A stretch of DNA of 64,000 nt from Candidatus Rokuibacteriota bacterium (GTDB lineage Bacteria; Methylomirabilota; Methylomirabilia; Rokubacteriales; CSP1-6): positions 1 through 64,000 of the forward strand of contig QHSP01000022.1 of NCBI GenBank assembly GCA_003220495.1, written 5' to 3'. How positions within the stretch are numbered: the stretch's first letter is position 1; every line of letters begins with the position of its first letter. Made by a program: the position numbers and the translations under genes. Shown here in pieces: positions 1,627-12,698 of the stretch. The notes below the pieces were generated by a model that worked only from the letters and a program-made list of their open reading frames with translations, was not told the origin of the DNA and did no database searches.

Positions 1627-2847
1627 ATGACACAGAACGGTGCCCTGTCGAAGAACATGCGGCTCCTGGGCCACAACGATCTGGGCGGCTTCGGCAACTG
1701 CGGCGAGGGGATGGCCATCCAGCTCGCCCGCGACGGGCGGCGGGTGATCTGGCTCGGCCACGAGTCGGCGCCGAAGAACTTCACCGCCGTGGACGTGACC
1801 GATCCGGGCAAGCCGTCGGTCATCGTGCAGACCGATCTCCCCCACGGCGAGATGCGCTCGAACAACCTGGATCTGGTGGGCGATCTCCTGGTGGTGCCGT
1901 ATCAGACGGCGCGACCGGGCATGCAGCCGGCGGGCGTCGAGTTCTTCGACGTGGCCGATCCGGGCAAGCCGCGCTCGATCGCGTTCTTCGACGCCTCCGG
2001 GCCCCACTCGCGGGGCGTGCACCATCTGTGGTTCGTCGACGGATCCTATTTGCACCTGGCCAGCGGCGCGCCCGACTTCAAGCCGCGTAACCCGAAGGAC
2101 GATCAGTTCTACCGCATCATCGACGTCCGGCAGCCGACCCGTCCGACCGAGGTCGGGCGCTGGTGGCTTCCCGGCACGCGTGACGGCGACCCCGATTCGC
2201 CACCGGCCCGGCACCCGAAATTCGACGCCGGCTTTCGCGCCCACAACACGAACGTGTACCCGCGTCGGCCCGATCGGGCGTGGATCGGCTACATCGACGG
2301 CGGCGCGATCGTGCTCGACATCTCGGACATGGCGCGGCCGCGCATGCTGAGCCGGTGGGACTATCACCCGCCGTACCCGGGCTTCACGCACACCTTGCTG
2401 CCGCTCTTCGACCCGCAGCTCGTGATCGTCTCCGACGAAGCGACGGCCGAAGCCGGCAAGGACTGGCCGAAGCTCGTCTGGGTCGTCGACATCCGGGACG
2501 AGACGAATCCGGTGCCGCTCTCGACCTTCCCGATTCCCGCGGTGGCCGAGTTCGGGGGACGCGGCGGACGATACGGCGCCCACAACCTGCACGAGAACCG
2601 GCCCGTGGCGAGCAACCTGGTAACAGAGAAGCTCGTCTTCGGCACCTACTTCAACGGCGGCGTGCGCGTCCACGACGTCTCGAATCCGTTCCGGCCCGAA
2701 GAGGTCGCCTACTACGTGCCCGAGGCGCCTCGCGGGTCACGCGCCGGAGCCGTGCAGATCAACGACGTGCTGGTCGACGAGCGCCGTATCGTGTACGCGG
2801 TCGACCGCCTCATCGGCGGTCTTTATACGCTGGAGCTTCAGGTCTAG
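1627..2847 (+). CDS. LVIVD-repeat beta-propeller protein
   Basis: Protein of 406 residues made of repeats of the form D-[VI]-x-[DN]-P-x-[KR]-P: AVDVTDPGKP, FFDVADPGKP, IIDVRQPTRP, VLDISDMARP, VVDIRDETNP and VHDVSNPFRP. This is the pattern of LVIVD repeats, which fold as a beta propeller. There is no signal peptide, so it is probably cytoplasmic. The reading frame stays open far upstream, but GAGGGAGA before ATG 1627 fixes the start. It stands alone between the divergent NitT operon and the convergent superoxide dismutase, whose stop overlaps its own. The biochemical role is unknown; propellers of this kind are usually binding scaffolds. Confidence 0.8.
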   Translation: MTQNGALSKNMRLLGHNDLGGFGNCGEGMAIQLARDGRRVIWLGHESAPKNFTAVDVTDPGKPSVIVQTDLPHGEMRSNNLDLVGDLLVVPYQTARPGMQPAGVEFFDVADPGKPRSIAFFDASGPHSRGVHHLWFVDGSYLHLASGAPDFKPRNPKDDQFYRIIDVRQPTRPTEVGRWWLPGTRDGDPDSPPARHPKFDAGFRAHNTNVYPRRPDRAWIGYIDGGAIVLDISDMARPRMLSRWDYHPPYPGFTHTLLPLFDPQLVIVSDEATAEAGKDWPKLVWVVDIRDETNPVPLSTFPIPAVAEFGGRGGRYGAHNLHENRPVASNLVTEKLVFGTYFNGGVRVHDVSNPFRPEEVAYYVPEAPRGSRAGAVQINDVLVDERRIVYAVDRLIGGLYTLELQV

Positions 2848-3482
2848 GCCGCGGACCGAACGGTCGCCGCTTCGCGAAGCCGCTGGTCGACGGTCGACCA
2901 GTCGACGTTCTTGAAGAACGCGTCGACGTACTTCGCGCGCTCGGTCGCCTTGTAGTCGCGCATGAACGCGTGCTCCCACACGTCCATGACCAGAATCGGC
3001 TTCCACCGAGCCGGAATCCCGTCCTGATGGAGACTGATCCACTGGTTGACCAGGTGGCCATTGACGGGGTCCTGATAGAGGATCACCCAGCCGATCCCGC
3101 GCATGCCGCCGATTGCCCGGAAATTCGCCTGCCAGTGATCGATGGATCCGTAGGTCTCGGCGAACGCGCGCCCGACCGACTGCCGATCCGAGGGCCGGGC
3201 TTCGCCGCCCGGCTTCAGATTGGAGAAGTAGAGCTCGTGCAAGACCATGCCGTCGTACTCGTACGCGAGCCGGCGAGTTCCTTCCGCGAGGCTGAAGTCC
3301 TTTCCTGACTCGGCGTGGTCGGCACGCATCTCCGAGAGCTCCTGTACGAGCGAGTTCACCTGTTTCACGTATCCCGCATAGAGGTCGAGGTGCTCGGTGA
3401 TCTGAACGTCCGAGATCCCCGTGAGCCCTCTGAGGTGATCGTAGGATTTGGCGGTGTACAGAGCTCGGCCGTCATGTTTCAT
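2844..3482 (-). CDS. Superoxide dismutase, Fe/Mn family
   Basis: Converts superoxide to oxygen and hydrogen peroxide in the cytoplasm. About 212 residues from ATG 3482, the usual size. The C-terminal metal-site signature appears as DVWEHAFMRDY, giving the Asp and His ligands; the N-terminal domain has an EHLDLYAGYVKQVN helix and HELYFSN, supplying the other His ligands. The hydrophobic gate and second-shell residues differ from the textbook enzyme, so metal preference (Fe, Mn or either) cannot be called. AGGAGG lies 12 nt before the chosen ATG; a GTG three codons earlier is too close to it. No signal peptide. Confidence 0.9.
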   Translation of the reverse strand: MKHDGRALYTAKSYDHLRGLTGISDVQITEHLDLYAGYVKQVNSLVQELSEMRADHAESGKDFSLAEGTRRLAYEYDGMVLHELYFSNLKPGGEARPSDRQSVGRAFAETYGSIDHWQANFRAIGGMRGIGWVILYQDPVNGHLVNQWISLHQDGIPARWKPILVMDVWEHAFMRDYKATERAKYVDAFFKNVDWSTVDQRLREAATVRSAA

Positions 3483-3639
3483 CGTCTTCACGAACCTCCT
3501 ACCTCGCGAACGTGGAAGATCCGTGCCAGGCCGACGCGCGGGAAATTCCCGGGCACGAGCCATGCAACAGCTTGCCATGGCACGAACGCAGTTTCGATGC
3601 AGGTGGAGTAAACGCAACCGCAGACGGAGGGAGTTTACG

Positions 3640-3934: not shown

Positions 3935-4942
3935 TTACTTCTTCCCGAGCTCGGCGACCGCCCGGTCGCGATAGGCAAAGTTGAAGAGGCGATTCGCCGG
4001 CAGGAGATCCTTGTACTTCAGGTAGCCTTGCTCGGAGCTCAGACGCTGCATCGAGTCGAGCACGGACATATCCATGTCAAGGTTCGGATCGAGCACGTGG
4101 GCGCGCGCCCGCCGAATCACGTCGGCCTTCGCGCCGGTGTACTTCACCATCAGGTCGATGTTCCGCTCCTGCTTCCAGCCGTTGTCCAGCGCGAGATCAC
4201 GCGCGGCCTTGAGGTAGGCGACCATCACCTTGTGGGCGAGGTCGGGATTCTTGGCCGCCCAGTCTTTGTTCCAGAAGATCGCCGTGATCGGTGTGGCCCT
4301 GGCGCCGGCGGGGCGCGGCAGCGGCCGGAGCGCGACGCCGCGCTCCTCGGCCAGGGTTGGGAAGGGCTCGGTGAGGATCGCCGCCTCGACCGCGCCGGAC
4401 TCGAGCGCCGGCACCATGTCGGGGAACGGCATGGTCTTGACCTGCACGTCCTTCAGCGCGAGACCGTCCCGTTTGAGGGCCTGGTCGAGCATCCACTCGA
4501 CGGCGGCGCCGCGAACGTTCAGCGCTACCGGCTTGCCCTTCAGGTCGCCGATGCGCTTGATCTCTTTTTCCCAGGACGCGCGGCGCACGGTGAAGTAGTC
4601 CTCGACGTAGCCCGAATGTAGCGGCGCGACGAACTCGACGGGCAGGGCCGATGCGACGGCGTTGAAGCCGGCCGCGCCCATCCCGGTGCCGCCCATGTTG
4701 AGCTGGCCGGTGGCGACCTGCGAGAGGATCTCGGGCCCGCCGCTCAGCTTCACGGTTTCCACGGCGATGTCGGCGGCCGGTAGATGCCGGTCGGCCATGA
4801 TGTACAGCGCCGCGAAGGAGTCTGAAGGAATGTAGCCGACCCGCACGACGGGCTTCGTCTGCGGGGAGACCGGCGGCGCGGCCGCGAGGCTCGCCAGGAC
4901 GAACATGGCCAACCAGACTCGCGTTCTACGCGTCACGCTCAT
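3935..4942 (-). CDS. ABC transporter substrate-binding protein, NitT/TauA type
   Basis: Periplasmic binding protein of 335 residues from ATG 4942, which has GGAGG 6 nt upstream. Residues 1-28 are a signal peptide ending near SPQTKP. The mature part shows the NMT1/SsuA pattern: VRVGYIPSDSFAALYIM at the start, GQLNMGGTGMGA as a ligand loop, and AAILTEPFPTLAEERG. No transport partner is adjacent on the same strand. The ATPase and two permeases at 6597-8929 lack a binding protein of their own and may use this one. It lies 44 bp downstream of the SelW-like gene and may be co-transcribed with it. Confidence 0.85.
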   Translation of the reverse strand: MSVTRRTRVWLAMFVLASLAAAPPVSPQTKPVVRVGYIPSDSFAALYIMADRHLPAADIAVETVKLSGGPEILSQVATGQLNMGGTGMGAAGFNAVASALPVEFVAPLHSGYVEDYFTVRRASWEKEIKRIGDLKGKPVALNVRGAAVEWMLDQALKRDGLALKDVQVKTMPFPDMVPALESGAVEAAILTEPFPTLAEERGVALRPLPRPAGARATPITAIFWNKDWAAKNPDLAHKVMVAYLKAARDLALDNGWKQERNIDLMVKYTGAKADVIRRARAHVLDPNLDMDMSVLDSMQRLSSEQGYLKYKDLLPANRLFNFAYRDRAVAELGKK

Positions 4943-4986: not shown

Positions 4987-5217
4987 CTAGCCGCGGGACC
5001 GGACGAGCCGGGATATCTCGCCGGGCTCCGGCGAGCGGCCGGCTTGGCGTCGGGAGAAGACCGTGTGGCCGTCGACGAGCACAGTCAGCTCTCGGAGGCC
5101 GCCCCAGCTGATCTTCGCGACCACCTGGAGCGTCGACTCGAGCTCGTCGCGGAGGCGTACCGCCTCTCGCCTCAGGTCCACTCAGAACGCGCAGCGCTTG
5201 ATCTCGACGTTCAACAC
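4987..5217 (-). CDS. SelW/Rdx-family protein, probable selenoprotein (in-frame UGA at 5182-5184)
   Basis: Read from GTG 5217 through the TGA at 5184-5182 to TAG 4987, this gives 76 residues beginning MLNVEIKRCAFU, where U is the TGA codon. The CxxU redox motif at residues 9-12, the following amphipathic helix and the late segment GGLRELTVLVDGHTVFSRR and PEPGEISRLV match the SelT/SelW/SelH (Rdx) thioredoxin-like family, whose members have CxxC or CxxU here. A conventional gene caller would start after the TGA and lose the active site. A promoter lies just upstream and a SECIS-like hairpin just downstream of the TGA. The partner and substrate of this family are unknown. Selenocysteine is an inference; the alternative is a nonsense mutation of a Cys codon. 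Confidence 0.7.
5152..5166 (-). other. Candidate bacterial SECIS hairpin
   Basis: On the minus strand GAGGCG and CGCCTC pair perfectly around a GTA triloop. The loop occupies +22 to +24 counted from the base after the TGA, and its first base is G. Bacterial SECIS elements are known to be short hairpins within the coding region, with the apical loop about 16-37 nt after the UGA and a guanosine at its start, so geometry fits. With a bulged A the stem can be extended by two more pairs. Confidence 0.55.
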
Positions 5218-5222
5218 TCGCG

Positions 5223-5251
5223 TTTCTAGACCACATCGCCGGTGAAGGCAA
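5223..5251 (-). promoter_or_regulatory. Promoter of the SelW-like gene
   Basis: TTGCCT (5251-5246) and TAGAAA (5228-5223) on the minus strand are spaced by exactly 17 bp. The -10 box ends 5 nt before GTG 5217, so the transcript should begin at or within a base or two of the start codon. No Shine-Dalgarno sequence precedes the GTG, which fits a leaderless mRNA. Confidence 0.5.
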
Positions 5252-5994: not shown

Positions 5995-6564
5995 TCAGAT
6001 CTGCGCGCGCGCGTCACCAAGACGCTCGTCGCTCCTGATCGCCCGCCCCAGCGCGACCAACGCGCGCCCGAAGCGCGCCGCATCCTCCACGAGGCTCGGC
6101 TCCAGGGTGGTGTCCCCGCCCGAGCGAATCACGCCGTAGAGCACCGGGGGCACGACGTACGCGCCGAAGTACCGCACGAGCACGTCGATCAGCGGATCGG
6201 CGCCGAGGAAGTGGTGATGCGAGCCGCCAGTCGCCACGATCCCGACGGCCTTCGCTCGCAGGGGCCCGTCGAACCGGTCGGGCGGCCCTCCCCGCGGCAC
6301 ACGCTCGAGAAACTCCTTCAGCACGGCCGCATACGTCGAGCGGAACATCGGCGTGCCGAGCACGACGGCGTCGGCGGCGGCCAGGCTCCGCATGTCGCTC
6401 TCGACGCGAGCCTGATCCAGTGGCCCGGCGCCGAGGTGCACCGTCGACGACGAGACCCCCGTGTGCGTCTCGCTCGCCGCCTTCAGTACCAGGCCGACGA
6501 GGCGATCGGTATTGCCACCGGCCTGCGAAGCCACTACCGCGAGAACGTGGATCGGCTTGTCCAA
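5995..6564 (-). CDS. NAD(P)H-dependent FMN reductase, flavodoxin fold
   Basis: 189 residues from a TTG start at 6564, chosen because GGGAGG lies at the right distance and the flavodoxin fold begins immediately (KPIHVLAVVASQAGGNTDRLVG, the FMN phosphate loop). Further family features are VVLGTPMFRSTYAAVLKEFLERVP and GIVATGGSHHHFLGADPLIDVLVRYFG, as in SsuE/MsuE-type reductases. It should reduce free FMN with NAD(P)H, often for a partner monooxygenase in sulfonate use, which would suit the neighbouring NitT transporters, but no monooxygenase is next to it. Confidence 0.85.
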   Translation of the reverse strand: MDKPIHVLAVVASQAGGNTDRLVGLVLKAASETHTGVSSSTVHLGAGPLDQARVESDMRSLAAADAVVLGTPMFRSTYAAVLKEFLERVPRGGPPDRFDGPLRAKAVGIVATGGSHHHFLGADPLIDVLVRYFGAYVVPPVLYGVIRSGGDTTLEPSLVEDAARFGRALVALGRAIRSDERLGDARAQI

Positions 6565-6589
6565 GTCGTGAGCCTCCCGGCGGTAAGGA

Positions 6590-6595
6590 TATAAT
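6590..6595 (+). promoter_or_regulatory. Consensus -10 hexamer (TATAAT)
   Basis: A perfect TATAAT precedes the ABC ATPase gene and overlaps the only spacing that would suit its start. The -35 region is weak. Transcription would begin near 6602, which complicates the CTG start proposed at 6597 (see that gene). Confidence 0.4.
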
Positions 6596-6596
6596 C

Positions 6597-7412
6597 CTGC
6601 CCACGCACGCACCCAAAGTCCTCGTCAACGAAGTCAGCGTGACATTCGAGAGCCGCGGCCGCTCGGTCATGGCGCTCGATCGGATCTCGCTCCAGGCCCA
6701 CGCCGGCGAGTTCCTCTGCATCGTCGGCCCGAGCGGCAGCGGCAAGTCGACCCTGCTGCGTGTCCTGGCCGGTCTGCATCGCCAGAGCGCCGGCGACGTC
6801 CACATCCAGGCCGACCGTCCGGGAACGCCGCTCACGGCGATGGTATTCCAGGAGCACGCGCTGCTGCCATGGCGCACGGTCCGCGACAACGTCACGTTCG
6901 GCCTCGAGAATCGCGGGGTCGGGCGCGCCGAGCGGGAAGCGCGGGCGCGCGAGATGCTGGCGATGGTCGGGCTCGCGCGATTCGCCCAGCACTATCCTCA
7001 TCAGCTCTCGGGCGGCATGAAGCAGCGCGTGGGCATCGCGCGGGCGCTCGCGAACGACCCGGAAGTGCTCCTGATGGACGAGCCACTCGCGGCGCTCGAC
7101 GCCCAGACGCGCACGATCATGCAGGAAGAGCTCCTTCGCATCTGGGCGACACTCGGCAAGACCGTCGTGTACGTGACCCACTCGCTCGAGGAAGCGCTGC
7201 TCCTGGGCGACCGCGTGGTCCTGCTGACGGCGCGGCCCGGGCGCGTGAGCCAGATCTATCCGGTGGATCTCGGCCGGCCGCGCGCGCTCGAGGTGAGGGC
7301 CTCGCCGGCGTATGGCGCGCTGCTCGAGAAAATCTGGTCGCGACTGCGCGAAGAAGTCGTGCGCGCGATGGAGGCCGACCGCGGCGTCGATCCCGAGGCG
7401 ATCGGCGGATGA
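6597..7412 (+). CDS. ABC transporter ATP-binding protein, NitT/Tau type
   Basis: Cytoplasmic ATPase that powers the two permeases that follow. Walker A is GPSGSGKST, the Q-loop MVFQEHALLPWRT, the signature LSGGMKQRV and Walker B LLMDEPLAALDAQ, then the H-loop THS; all intact. The start is uncertain. Homology clearly includes KVLVNEVSVTFES at the N-terminus, but the first ATG/GTG/TTG in that stretch is GTG 6639, which would cut the first beta strand. CTG 6597 with AAGGA 7 nt upstream is the best candidate. The downstream permease overlaps by ATGA. Confidence 0.88.
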   Translation: MPTHAPKVLVNEVSVTFESRGRSVMALDRISLQAHAGEFLCIVGPSGSGKSTLLRVLAGLHRQSAGDVHIQADRPGTPLTAMVFQEHALLPWRTVRDNVTFGLENRGVGRAEREARAREMLAMVGLARFAQHYPHQLSGGMKQRVGIARALANDPEVLLMDEPLAALDAQTRTIMQEELLRIWATLGKTVVYVTHSLEEALLLGDRVVLLTARPGRVSQIYPVDLGRPRALEVRASPAYGALLEKIWSRLREEVVRAMEADRGVDPEAIGG

Positions 7413-10373: not shown

Positions 10374-12698
10374 TCAGTTCTTCTTGGCGTCCTGGATGGC
10401 CCGCCACACGCGCTCGGGCGAAGCGGGCATGTCGAGCTGGCGAACGCCGACCGAGGCGAGCGCGTCGATGACCGCGTTCATCACGGCGGGCAGGGCGCCC
10501 ACGGTTCCCGCCTCGCCGGCGCCCTTGGCGCCCAGCGGGTTCAGCTTCGTCGGCACCGGATTGCTCTCGATGTGCATCTCGGGGAACGTGTCACCGCGCG
10601 GGATCGCGTAGTCCATGAACGATGCGGTCAGCAGCTGACCCGACTCGCGGTCGTATACGACCTGCTCCATGAGCGCTTGCCCCACGCCTTGCGCCACGCC
10701 GCCGTGGATCTGGCCCTTCAGGGTCACCGGATTGATGACGGTCCCGACGTCGTCGACGATCACGTAGCTCACGATCGCCACGGCGCCGGAGTCGGGATCG
10801 ACTTCCACCTCGCACACGTGGCAGCCGTTCGGCCACGTGGCCTGCTTGGGCGAGAACGTGCCGGTCTCGTAGAGCCCGGGCTCGACGCCGGGCGGGAGCT
10901 GGTTGGGCTGGAAGGCCGCGCGCGCGACCTCCTTCAGCCCCACGGCGCGATCGGTCCCGACGACGCCGAACTTGCCGTCGCTGAACGTGACGTCCGCCTC
11001 GGCCGCTTCGAGCAGGCGCGCCGCGATCTTCCTGCCCTTGGTGAGGACCTTGTCGGCCGCCATCCACAGCGCGGTGCCGCCGATCACGGTCGACCGCGAG
11101 CCCATCGTGCCCATGCCGAACGCGACCCGGTCCGTGTCGCCATCGACGTACAGCACGTCGGCCGGATCGAGGCCGAGTCGCTCGTTCAGGATCTGCTTGA
11201 ACGTGGTCTCGTGGCCCTGGCCCTGGTTCTTCGAGCCCATCAGCACCGTCGCGCTCCCGCTCGGCGCGAACCGGATCTCGGCGAACTCGGGCTGAGGACC
11301 GGCCGCCTGCTCGATCGGGTTGACGATGGCCAAGCCGCGCAACTTGCCGCGCCGACGGGATTCGTCGCGACGCAGCGCGAAGCCGGCGACATCGCCGAGC
11401 TTCAGCCCCTTGTCCATGTTCGTCGTGAAATCGCCAGAGTCGTAGGTGGCGCCCAGCGGGTTCTTGTACGGCAGGGCGGAGGAAGGAATCAGGTTCTTCC
11501 GTCGGAGCTCGATCGGATCCACGCCGAGCTCGCGGGCCGTGTCGTCGATCAGCCGCTCCAGGACGTACGTCGCCTCCGGCCGGCCAGCCCCGCGGTACGG
11601 CGCGGTCGAGTTCGTGTGGGTCATGACGCTGGTGACGTGGACGTACGCGGCCTGGAACTTGTAGACACCGACCAGGGTGACCACGTTGCTGAACGTGGCG
11701 AGGAGATTTCGGTCCGAGGAGACGTACGCACCGACGTTCGCGAGCGTGCGGACGCGCAGCGCGAGGAACCGGCCGTCCGCGTCCAGCGCGATCTCCGCCT
11801 CGCTCACGTTGTCCCGAGCGTGCTCGTCGGCCAGGATCGCCTCGCGCCGCTCGCACTGCCACCGCACCGGCCGGCCCAGCTTGCGCGCCGCCCACAGCAC
11901 CAGCTTGTGCTCCGGGTACTGCCAGCCTTTGGTGCCGAAGGCGCCGCCGACGTCACCCGCGACGACCCGGATCTTGTGCTCGGGGATCTTGAAGATGTTG
12001 CTCGCCAGCGCGTTGCGGACGCGATGCGGGTACTGGACGTCGGCGTAGAGCGTGTAGCGGTCCTCGTGCGGGTCGTAGACGCCGAGCGAGCCCCGCGGCT
12101 CCATGAACTGGGCATGAACCCGCGTGATGACGTAGCGGCGGCCGACGACACGATGCGCCGTCGCGAACGCCGCCTCGGTCGCGCCCTTGTCACCCGACTC
12201 GAAGATGTTGCTGATGTTGTCGGGACACTCCTCCCACACGGGCGCCGCTCCGGGCTGCGTCGCATCCGCCGTCGCCGTCACCGAGGGCAAGGGCTCGTAG
12301 TCGATCTGGACGAGGTCGGCCGCGTCCTCGGCCTGGGCGCGCGTCTCGGCGACGACGAGCGCGATCGGGTCGCCCACGTACCGCGCGCGATCGCGGCTGA
12401 GACCGTGATGCGGTCGGGCGAACATCGGGCCGCCGTCGGGGCGCTTGCGCTTCAGGGTCATGCTCATCGTGCCGAGACCGGCGACGTCGGCGCCGGTGAA
12501 CACGGCGAGAACGCCGGGCGCGCGCAGCGCCGCCGCGGAATCGATCGCGCGGATCCGGGCGTGCGCGTGCACCGAGCGCACGATGACGGCGTGCGTCTGG
12601 CCCGGAACATTGACGTCGTCGAGGTAGCGGCCGGCGCCGCGCAGGAGCCGGACGTCCTCGACCCGCTTGATTCCCTGTCCGATTCCGAACTGGCCCAT
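10374..12698 (-). CDS. Molybdenum hydroxylase large subunit, form II CoxL-like
   Basis: 774 residues, full length for the xanthine dehydrogenase/CO dehydrogenase large-subunit family. The N-terminal a/b hammerhead domain (GRYLDDVNVPGQ, YVGDPIALVVAETRAQAEDA) is followed by the molybdopterin-binding domains (FMEPRGSLGVYD, GGAFGTKG, VLMGSKNQGQGHETTF, GAKGAGEAGT with the catalytic Glu). The active-site loop reads PYRGAGR, the form II signature, not the AYxCSFR of true CO dehydrogenase, so carbon monoxide is unlikely to be the substrate. The FAD and 2Fe-2S subunits are absent nearby. It sits 19 bp after a LivK-type gene and 20 bp before the RutE-like gene. Confidence 0.9.
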   Translation of the reverse strand: MGQFGIGQGIKRVEDVRLLRGAGRYLDDVNVPGQTHAVIVRSVHAHARIRAIDSAAALRAPGVLAVFTGADVAGLGTMSMTLKRKRPDGGPMFARPHHGLSRDRARYVGDPIALVVAETRAQAEDAADLVQIDYEPLPSVTATADATQPGAAPVWEECPDNISNIFESGDKGATEAAFATAHRVVGRRYVITRVHAQFMEPRGSLGVYDPHEDRYTLYADVQYPHRVRNALASNIFKIPEHKIRVVAGDVGGAFGTKGWQYPEHKLVLWAARKLGRPVRWQCERREAILADEHARDNVSEAEIALDADGRFLALRVRTLANVGAYVSSDRNLLATFSNVVTLVGVYKFQAAYVHVTSVMTHTNSTAPYRGAGRPEATYVLERLIDDTARELGVDPIELRRKNLIPSSALPYKNPLGATYDSGDFTTNMDKGLKLGDVAGFALRRDESRRRGKLRGLAIVNPIEQAAGPQPEFAEIRFAPSGSATVLMGSKNQGQGHETTFKQILNERLGLDPADVLYVDGDTDRVAFGMGTMGSRSTVIGGTALWMAADKVLTKGRKIAARLLEAAEADVTFSDGKFGVVGTDRAVGLKEVARAAFQPNQLPPGVEPGLYETGTFSPKQATWPNGCHVCEVEVDPDSGAVAIVSYVIVDDVGTVINPVTLKGQIHGGVAQGVGQALMEQVVYDRESGQLLTASFMDYAIPRGDTFPEMHIESNPVPTKLNPLGAKGAGEAGTVGALPAVMNAVIDALASVGVRQLDMPASPERVWRAIQDAKKN

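Follow-up and report, generated by a model that had tools for sequence, protein, structure and literature searches.

A conserved Rdx-family gene with an in-frame TGA in Candidatus Rokuibacteriota, almost certainly a selenoprotein gene overlooked by ordinary gene calling

The closest described relatives of the gene reported here are the bacterial SELENOW-like selenoproteins (PF10262), in which selenocysteine (Sec) occupies the last position of a CxxU motif in an Rdx domain and the SECIS element lies directly after the UGA (PMC13188914, PMC9312934, PMC2398784). In two reviews, CxxU is the sole motif given for SelW-like proteins of prokaryotes, and the one from 2026 assigns them a single Sec. SELENOW proteins with UxxU have been described in amphioxus and in the alga Ostreococcus lucimarinus (PMC7539508, PMC3473315), and UxxU also occurs elsewhere in bacteria, for instance in the Prx-like family. 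The published model of the bacterial SECIS (bSECIS) requires a 4-16 bp stem, a 3-9 nt loop with a G in the first two bases, a UGA-to-loop distance of 16-37 nt and an energy of at most -7.5 kcal/mol (PMC13188914, figure 2 legend).

The window analysed here is the whole stretch of 64,000 nucleotides from one Candidatus Rokuibacteriota contig. On its reverse strand, a frame that ends at TAG 4989-4987 is open from GTG 5217-5215 except for a TGA at 5184-5182 (Table 1). As the original prediction had proposed, reading through this TGA yields KRCAFU followed by an Rdx domain; the product, VLNVEIKRCAFUVDLRREAVRLRDELESTLQVVAKISWGGLRELTVLVDGHTVFSRRQAGRSPEPGEISRLVRSRG, has the motif CAFU and is 75-76 residues long, depending on whether translation starts at 5214 or 5217. 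The start may be TTG 5214-5212 rather than GTG 5217, since most relatives start at an ATG that lines up with the TTG. In one relative, the codon aligned with the start (L026:1501-1503) is none of ATG, GTG and TTG but ATC, which could reflect a rare start, another nearby start or an assembly error. The plain list of open reading frames holds only a 64-residue remnant without the active site (4987-5181), just what a gene caller had been expected to report. All the elements that had been described for this locus were confirmed at their positions, and its interpretation as a selenoprotein locus is supported. We conclude that it is almost certainly a genuine, conserved selenoprotein gene that ordinary gene calling overlooks.

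Table 1. Features of the locus, in window coordinates
Feature	Position	Strand	Evidence or remarks
SelW/Rdx-like selenoprotein CDS, read-through	4987..5217	-	Translation, Pfam Rdx, 17-member alignment, AlphaFold
TGA read as Sec, second position of CxxU	5182..5184	-	TGA in 17/17 subfamily members; Sec machinery in genome
TGC, resolving Cys of CxxU	5191..5193	-	Sequence; TGA here in four relatives (UxxU)
SECIS-like hairpin GAGGCG-GTA-CGCCTC	5152..5166	-	6 bp, loop GUA, -8.2 kcal/mol, loop 21 nt after TGA
Possible lower stem, GCG 5170-5168 with CGC 5151-5149, one-base bulge A5167	5149..5170	-	Pairs kept in 13, 13 and 6 of 17
-35-like TTGCCT	5246..5251	-	Precedes the gene in all eight genus members that carry it
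-10-like TAGAAA	5223..5228	-	5 nt before GTG, 8 nt before TTG 5214
NMT1-like ABC-transporter substrate-binding protein	3935..4942	-	Pfam NMT1_2, E=1.4e-14

Membership in the known Rdx family is clear, and the subfamily is a divergent one that falls below the NCBI naming cut-offs. The read-through product matches Pfam Rdx (PF10262) with E=5.5e-6 and 26.9 bits, against a gathering cut-off of 22.6, over positions 1-73 of the 74-position profile. Two NCBIfam models of the SelW type scored below their cut-offs, CXXU_selWTH (TIGR02174) with 17.4 bits against 34.2 and SelTWH_Campy (NF041051) with 34.6 bits against 88, so that NCBI annotation would probably not name the protein. Profile comparison with an approximate human SELENOW sequence gave a probability of 15%, and this value was not used as evidence. 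An AlphaFold2 model built on the 17-member alignment described below (pLDDT 93.7) has a strand at 3-7, a helix at 12-29, strands at 34-37, 43-47 and 50-54, and a C-terminal helix. The redox motif C8-A-F-U11 falls between the first strand and the first helix in both alignment and model, with Cys8 and Sec11 placed where the helix begins, as is usual for the family. The best Foldseek matches of the model were the SelW-related bacterial structures 3dex, 2fa8 and 2p0g (TM 0.82-0.87 by query), followed by MIEN1 and mouse SelW. The first three structures and 2oka, all Cys-containing and presumably not selenoproteins as solved, share the fold at TM 0.82-0.87 with 21-36% identity over the aligned part. 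The Rdx domain, the place of the CxxU motif, the predicted fold and a SECIS-like element directly after the UGA are common to the window gene and the described bacterial SELENOW-like selenoproteins, whereas the window subfamily diverges from them in its basic RC-x-x-U-x-D-x-R-x-E-A motif and, in the genus of the window, in an mRNA that is probably leaderless.

Of 95 genomes of the same class that were searched, 18 have the gene, the window's own included. Seventeen belong to this subfamily, whose members form a single clade in the tree (support 98/97) and are 40-83% identical to the window protein, and the 18th (G008) carries a Cys protein from another branch. The original prediction had placed the TGA at the redox Cys/Sec position and had called for a comparison with homologues there: all 17 members have TGA at the identical codon, the 16 relatives spanning several genera and two families, and Cys is found only in forms of the other branch (L041, L043, L044), so that the subfamily itself offers no direct Cys/Sec pair. 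A scan of a collection of contigs returned one relative, from Candidatus Rokuibacteriota, with a gene 80% identical; viral contigs and plasmids were scanned as well and no relatives were found in them. If the TGA were simply a Cys codon TGC mutated to a stop, with the remainder a pseudogene, a single such change in one genome would look just like the window gene. However, the same TGA recurs in the 16 other genomes, and neither a Cys codon, another stop nor a frameshift was found at this position in any of the 17 members, whose reading frames are also free of frameshifts and further internal stops elsewhere. Nor does the sequence behave like a pseudogene: dN/dS downstream of the TGA, between the window and seven relatives of its genus, is about 0.23-0.38, well below 1, and marks purifying selection on this part of the gene. 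Decay of the gene is therefore exceedingly improbable.

Conservation on the other side of the TGA bears on a second alternative, namely that the real gene consists only of the part after the TGA, 64 residues from GTG 5181 (ATG in several relatives). Gene callers would pick this start, seven of eight genus members on the alignment have ATG or GTG right behind the TGA (CTG and ATT cases apart), and the remnant still passes Pfam Rdx by itself, though by only 0.4 bits. Beyond the closest relatives, however, the codon in question is TCC, GGC, GCC, CGC, CTG or GGG, none of which is a start, and the part ahead of the TGA is conserved as protein (I5, R7 and C8 are invariant in the 17-member alignment) and holds the first strand and half of the active site. 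We regard the shorter gene as very improbable, and the full-length, read-through gene remains the preferred reading.

Whether the organism could decode the TGA was examined in the window's genome, a draft of 5.98 Mb that is 98.4% complete. The genes that the original prediction had asked for, including the selB and tRNA-Sec whose absence would have refuted it, are there: selA, selB, selD and a tRNA-Sec with anticodon UCA all score above cut-off, with selB and selA adjacent on contig C152 together with the tRNA-Sec gene. The selD gene (L019:1501-2445) has itself an in-frame TGA at the usual SCAGU position, followed by a hairpin. Counting selD, at least three genes of the genome besides the window gene have a Sec-type TGA. 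Apart from selD, there are two matches to formate dehydrogenase alpha with one in-frame TGA each (L108, G000:C41; L109, G000:C38) and two further Rdx genes, also with one TGA each, of the CGEU type (L072, G000:C120:55163-55372) and the CVVU type (L073, G000:C97:51327-51527). These paralogues resemble the window gene in their CxxU motif and the hairpin after the TGA, but they lie on tree branches separate from its clade; the CGEU type occurs in most genomes of the family. Given this machinery and the other in-frame TGA genes, Sec insertion is expected to work in the organism. As a test of co-occurrence the machinery is uninformative, since selA is present in 84 of the 95 genomes of the class. 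The dedicated tRNA-Sec, SelA and SelB also argue against a reassignment of TGA to an ordinary amino acid, for which no support was found in the organism. TGA terminates ordinary genes of the window (e.g., 10374-12698 and 5995-6612) and, in several relatives, the selenoprotein gene itself. General reassignment is thereby excluded, and we assign it a negligible probability.

The hairpin that had been predicted after the TGA, with G as the first loop base, lies at 5166-5152, with its loop starting 21 nt after the TGA, and it satisfies all the published bSECIS constraints (PMC13188914). Taken alone it is weak evidence and not independent of coding. In our own version of the bSECIS test, 192 of the 1501 TGA trinucleotides of the window (12.8%) are followed by an equally model-compliant hairpin. 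The 5-bp core survives in about 29% of synonymous recodings of the stretch because E-A-V-R-L in the local codon usage tends to spell the stem; the core is therefore largely dictated by the amino-acid sequence. The weight of the hairpin rests instead on its conservation. All 17 sequences retain the core, with a G-C pair swapped for C-G in L040 and G-U replacing a pair in two cases, and covariation of this kind was matched by none of 500 shuffles (one shuffle control ignores the relatedness of the sequences). The product of the single-sequence core rates is ~1e-10, a figure that the relatedness makes far too small as a probability. Furthermore, five of the nine closest members use GTA for the Val in the loop, a codon that accounts for 1% of the Val codons of five genes in the window; this preference suggests that the RNA itself is under selection. 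For the 57 bases that follow the TGA, free-energy z-scores relative to synonymous recodings ranged from -2.3 to +1.1, and overall RNA stability was not used as evidence because these values are mixed. The possible lower stem with its one-base bulge (Table 1) recalls the SECIS elements of E. coli, but it is poorly conserved among the relatives. Another possibility is that the selenoprotein is real and SelB recognises some other or longer structure than hairpin 5166-5152. The high chance rate of the hairpin would fit this, as would the minimum-energy folds of the longer region, which vary between members, with a shifted hairpin favoured in L040. Yet the position of the hairpin, its loop consensus G[GU] and its core are constant in all 17 members, and we consider a different SelB element unlikely, although it deserves some weight; hairpin 5166-5152 is the candidate carried forward here.

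The promoter-like sequence that had been noted 5 nt before the GTG, TTGCCT and TAGAAA with a 17-nt spacer, is also present and is conserved in the genus. Among the eight genus members the spacer is 17 or 18 nt, and the -10 hexamer reads TAGAAA, TAAAAA, TAAAAC or TAAAGC. In the window, this hexamer matches four of six consensus positions, and its weight comes from the conservation in the genus. The original prediction had spoken of four independent signals. Their independence was overstated, for the hairpin is frequent by chance and tied to the coding sequence, and the promoter is weak alone. No Shine-Dalgarno motif is visible before the gene in the eight genus members, and the short distance from promoter to start codon makes a leaderless mRNA probable. 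The more distant L034 and L039 have a purine-rich AGGAGG or GGGAGG ahead of the ATG instead. Downstream, the NMT1-like gene starts 44 nt after the selenoprotein stop, and the two genes are neighbours in seven of eight genus members. Its arrangement suggests that the two are possibly co-transcribed; the neighbour does not reveal the substrate. The divergent upstream gene encodes an HbpS-like haem-degrading protein, and an iron/manganese superoxide dismutase gene is found nearby in the window (2844-3617, minus strand).

In four relatives, the first position of the redox motif is TGA as well, giving UxxU. Neither these relatives nor the two Rdx paralogues of the genome had figured in the original prediction. 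Three of them (L033, L037, L038) come from three genomes of one genus and the fourth (L040) from another family of the order. The two in-frame TGAs are six bases apart (L033:1522-1533, L037:1522-1533, L038:1135-1146, L040:1522-1533). The tree indicates two changes to UxxU, one in L033/L037/L038 and one in L040, although a single origin is not strictly excluded. From the second UGA to the hairpin loop the distance is about 17-20 nt and from the first UGA 26-29 nt, and the bSECIS model accepts both. We lean towards the view that a Sec-x-x-Sec pair arose at least twice in the bacterial SelW branch, that both UGAs are decoded through one hairpin to give a diselenide product, and that the CxxU protein of the window is a single-Sec sister. 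The amphioxus and Ostreococcus SELENOW proteins likewise have two Sec in UxxU, but they are eukaryotic, with the SECIS in the 3' UTR (PMC13188914), and the window gene itself is CxxU. As far as the open literature goes, no earlier listing of UxxU among bacterial SelW proteins appears to exist. A separate observation in two of the genomes with a UxxU gene is a Cys-only Rdx protein with the motif CTQC (L043, G043:C15; L044, G044:C92), which most other family members lack.

Taken together, it is highly probable that the product of the locus is a small selenoprotein of the Rdx (SelW/SelT/SelH) type, with a thioredoxin fold and with Sec inserted at the UGA. By homology with the known bacterial pathway, the probably leaderless mRNA (judging by the promoter spacing) would be bound by SelB carrying Sec-tRNA-Sec at the hairpin just 3' of UGA 5184-5182, and Sec would be inserted there. 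In the predicted product, a Cys-x-x-Sec redox pair would lie where the first strand of the modelled fold leads into the first helix. As in the family, it would most likely act as a thiol/selenol oxidoreductase, its selenolate attacking a disulfide, a peroxide or another oxidised substrate and its Cys resolving the intermediate via a selenenylsulfide.

With these genes, a phylum already noted for very large selenoproteomes gains a conserved selenoprotein subfamily that lacks annotation; for example, 63 selenoprotein genes have been predicted in one Methylomirabilota genome (cited in PMC13188914). Standard gene calling strips such genes of their active site. The occurrence of CxxU and UxxU within the same fold provides natural pairs for studying the effect of a second Sec and the bacterial decoding of two nearby UGAs.
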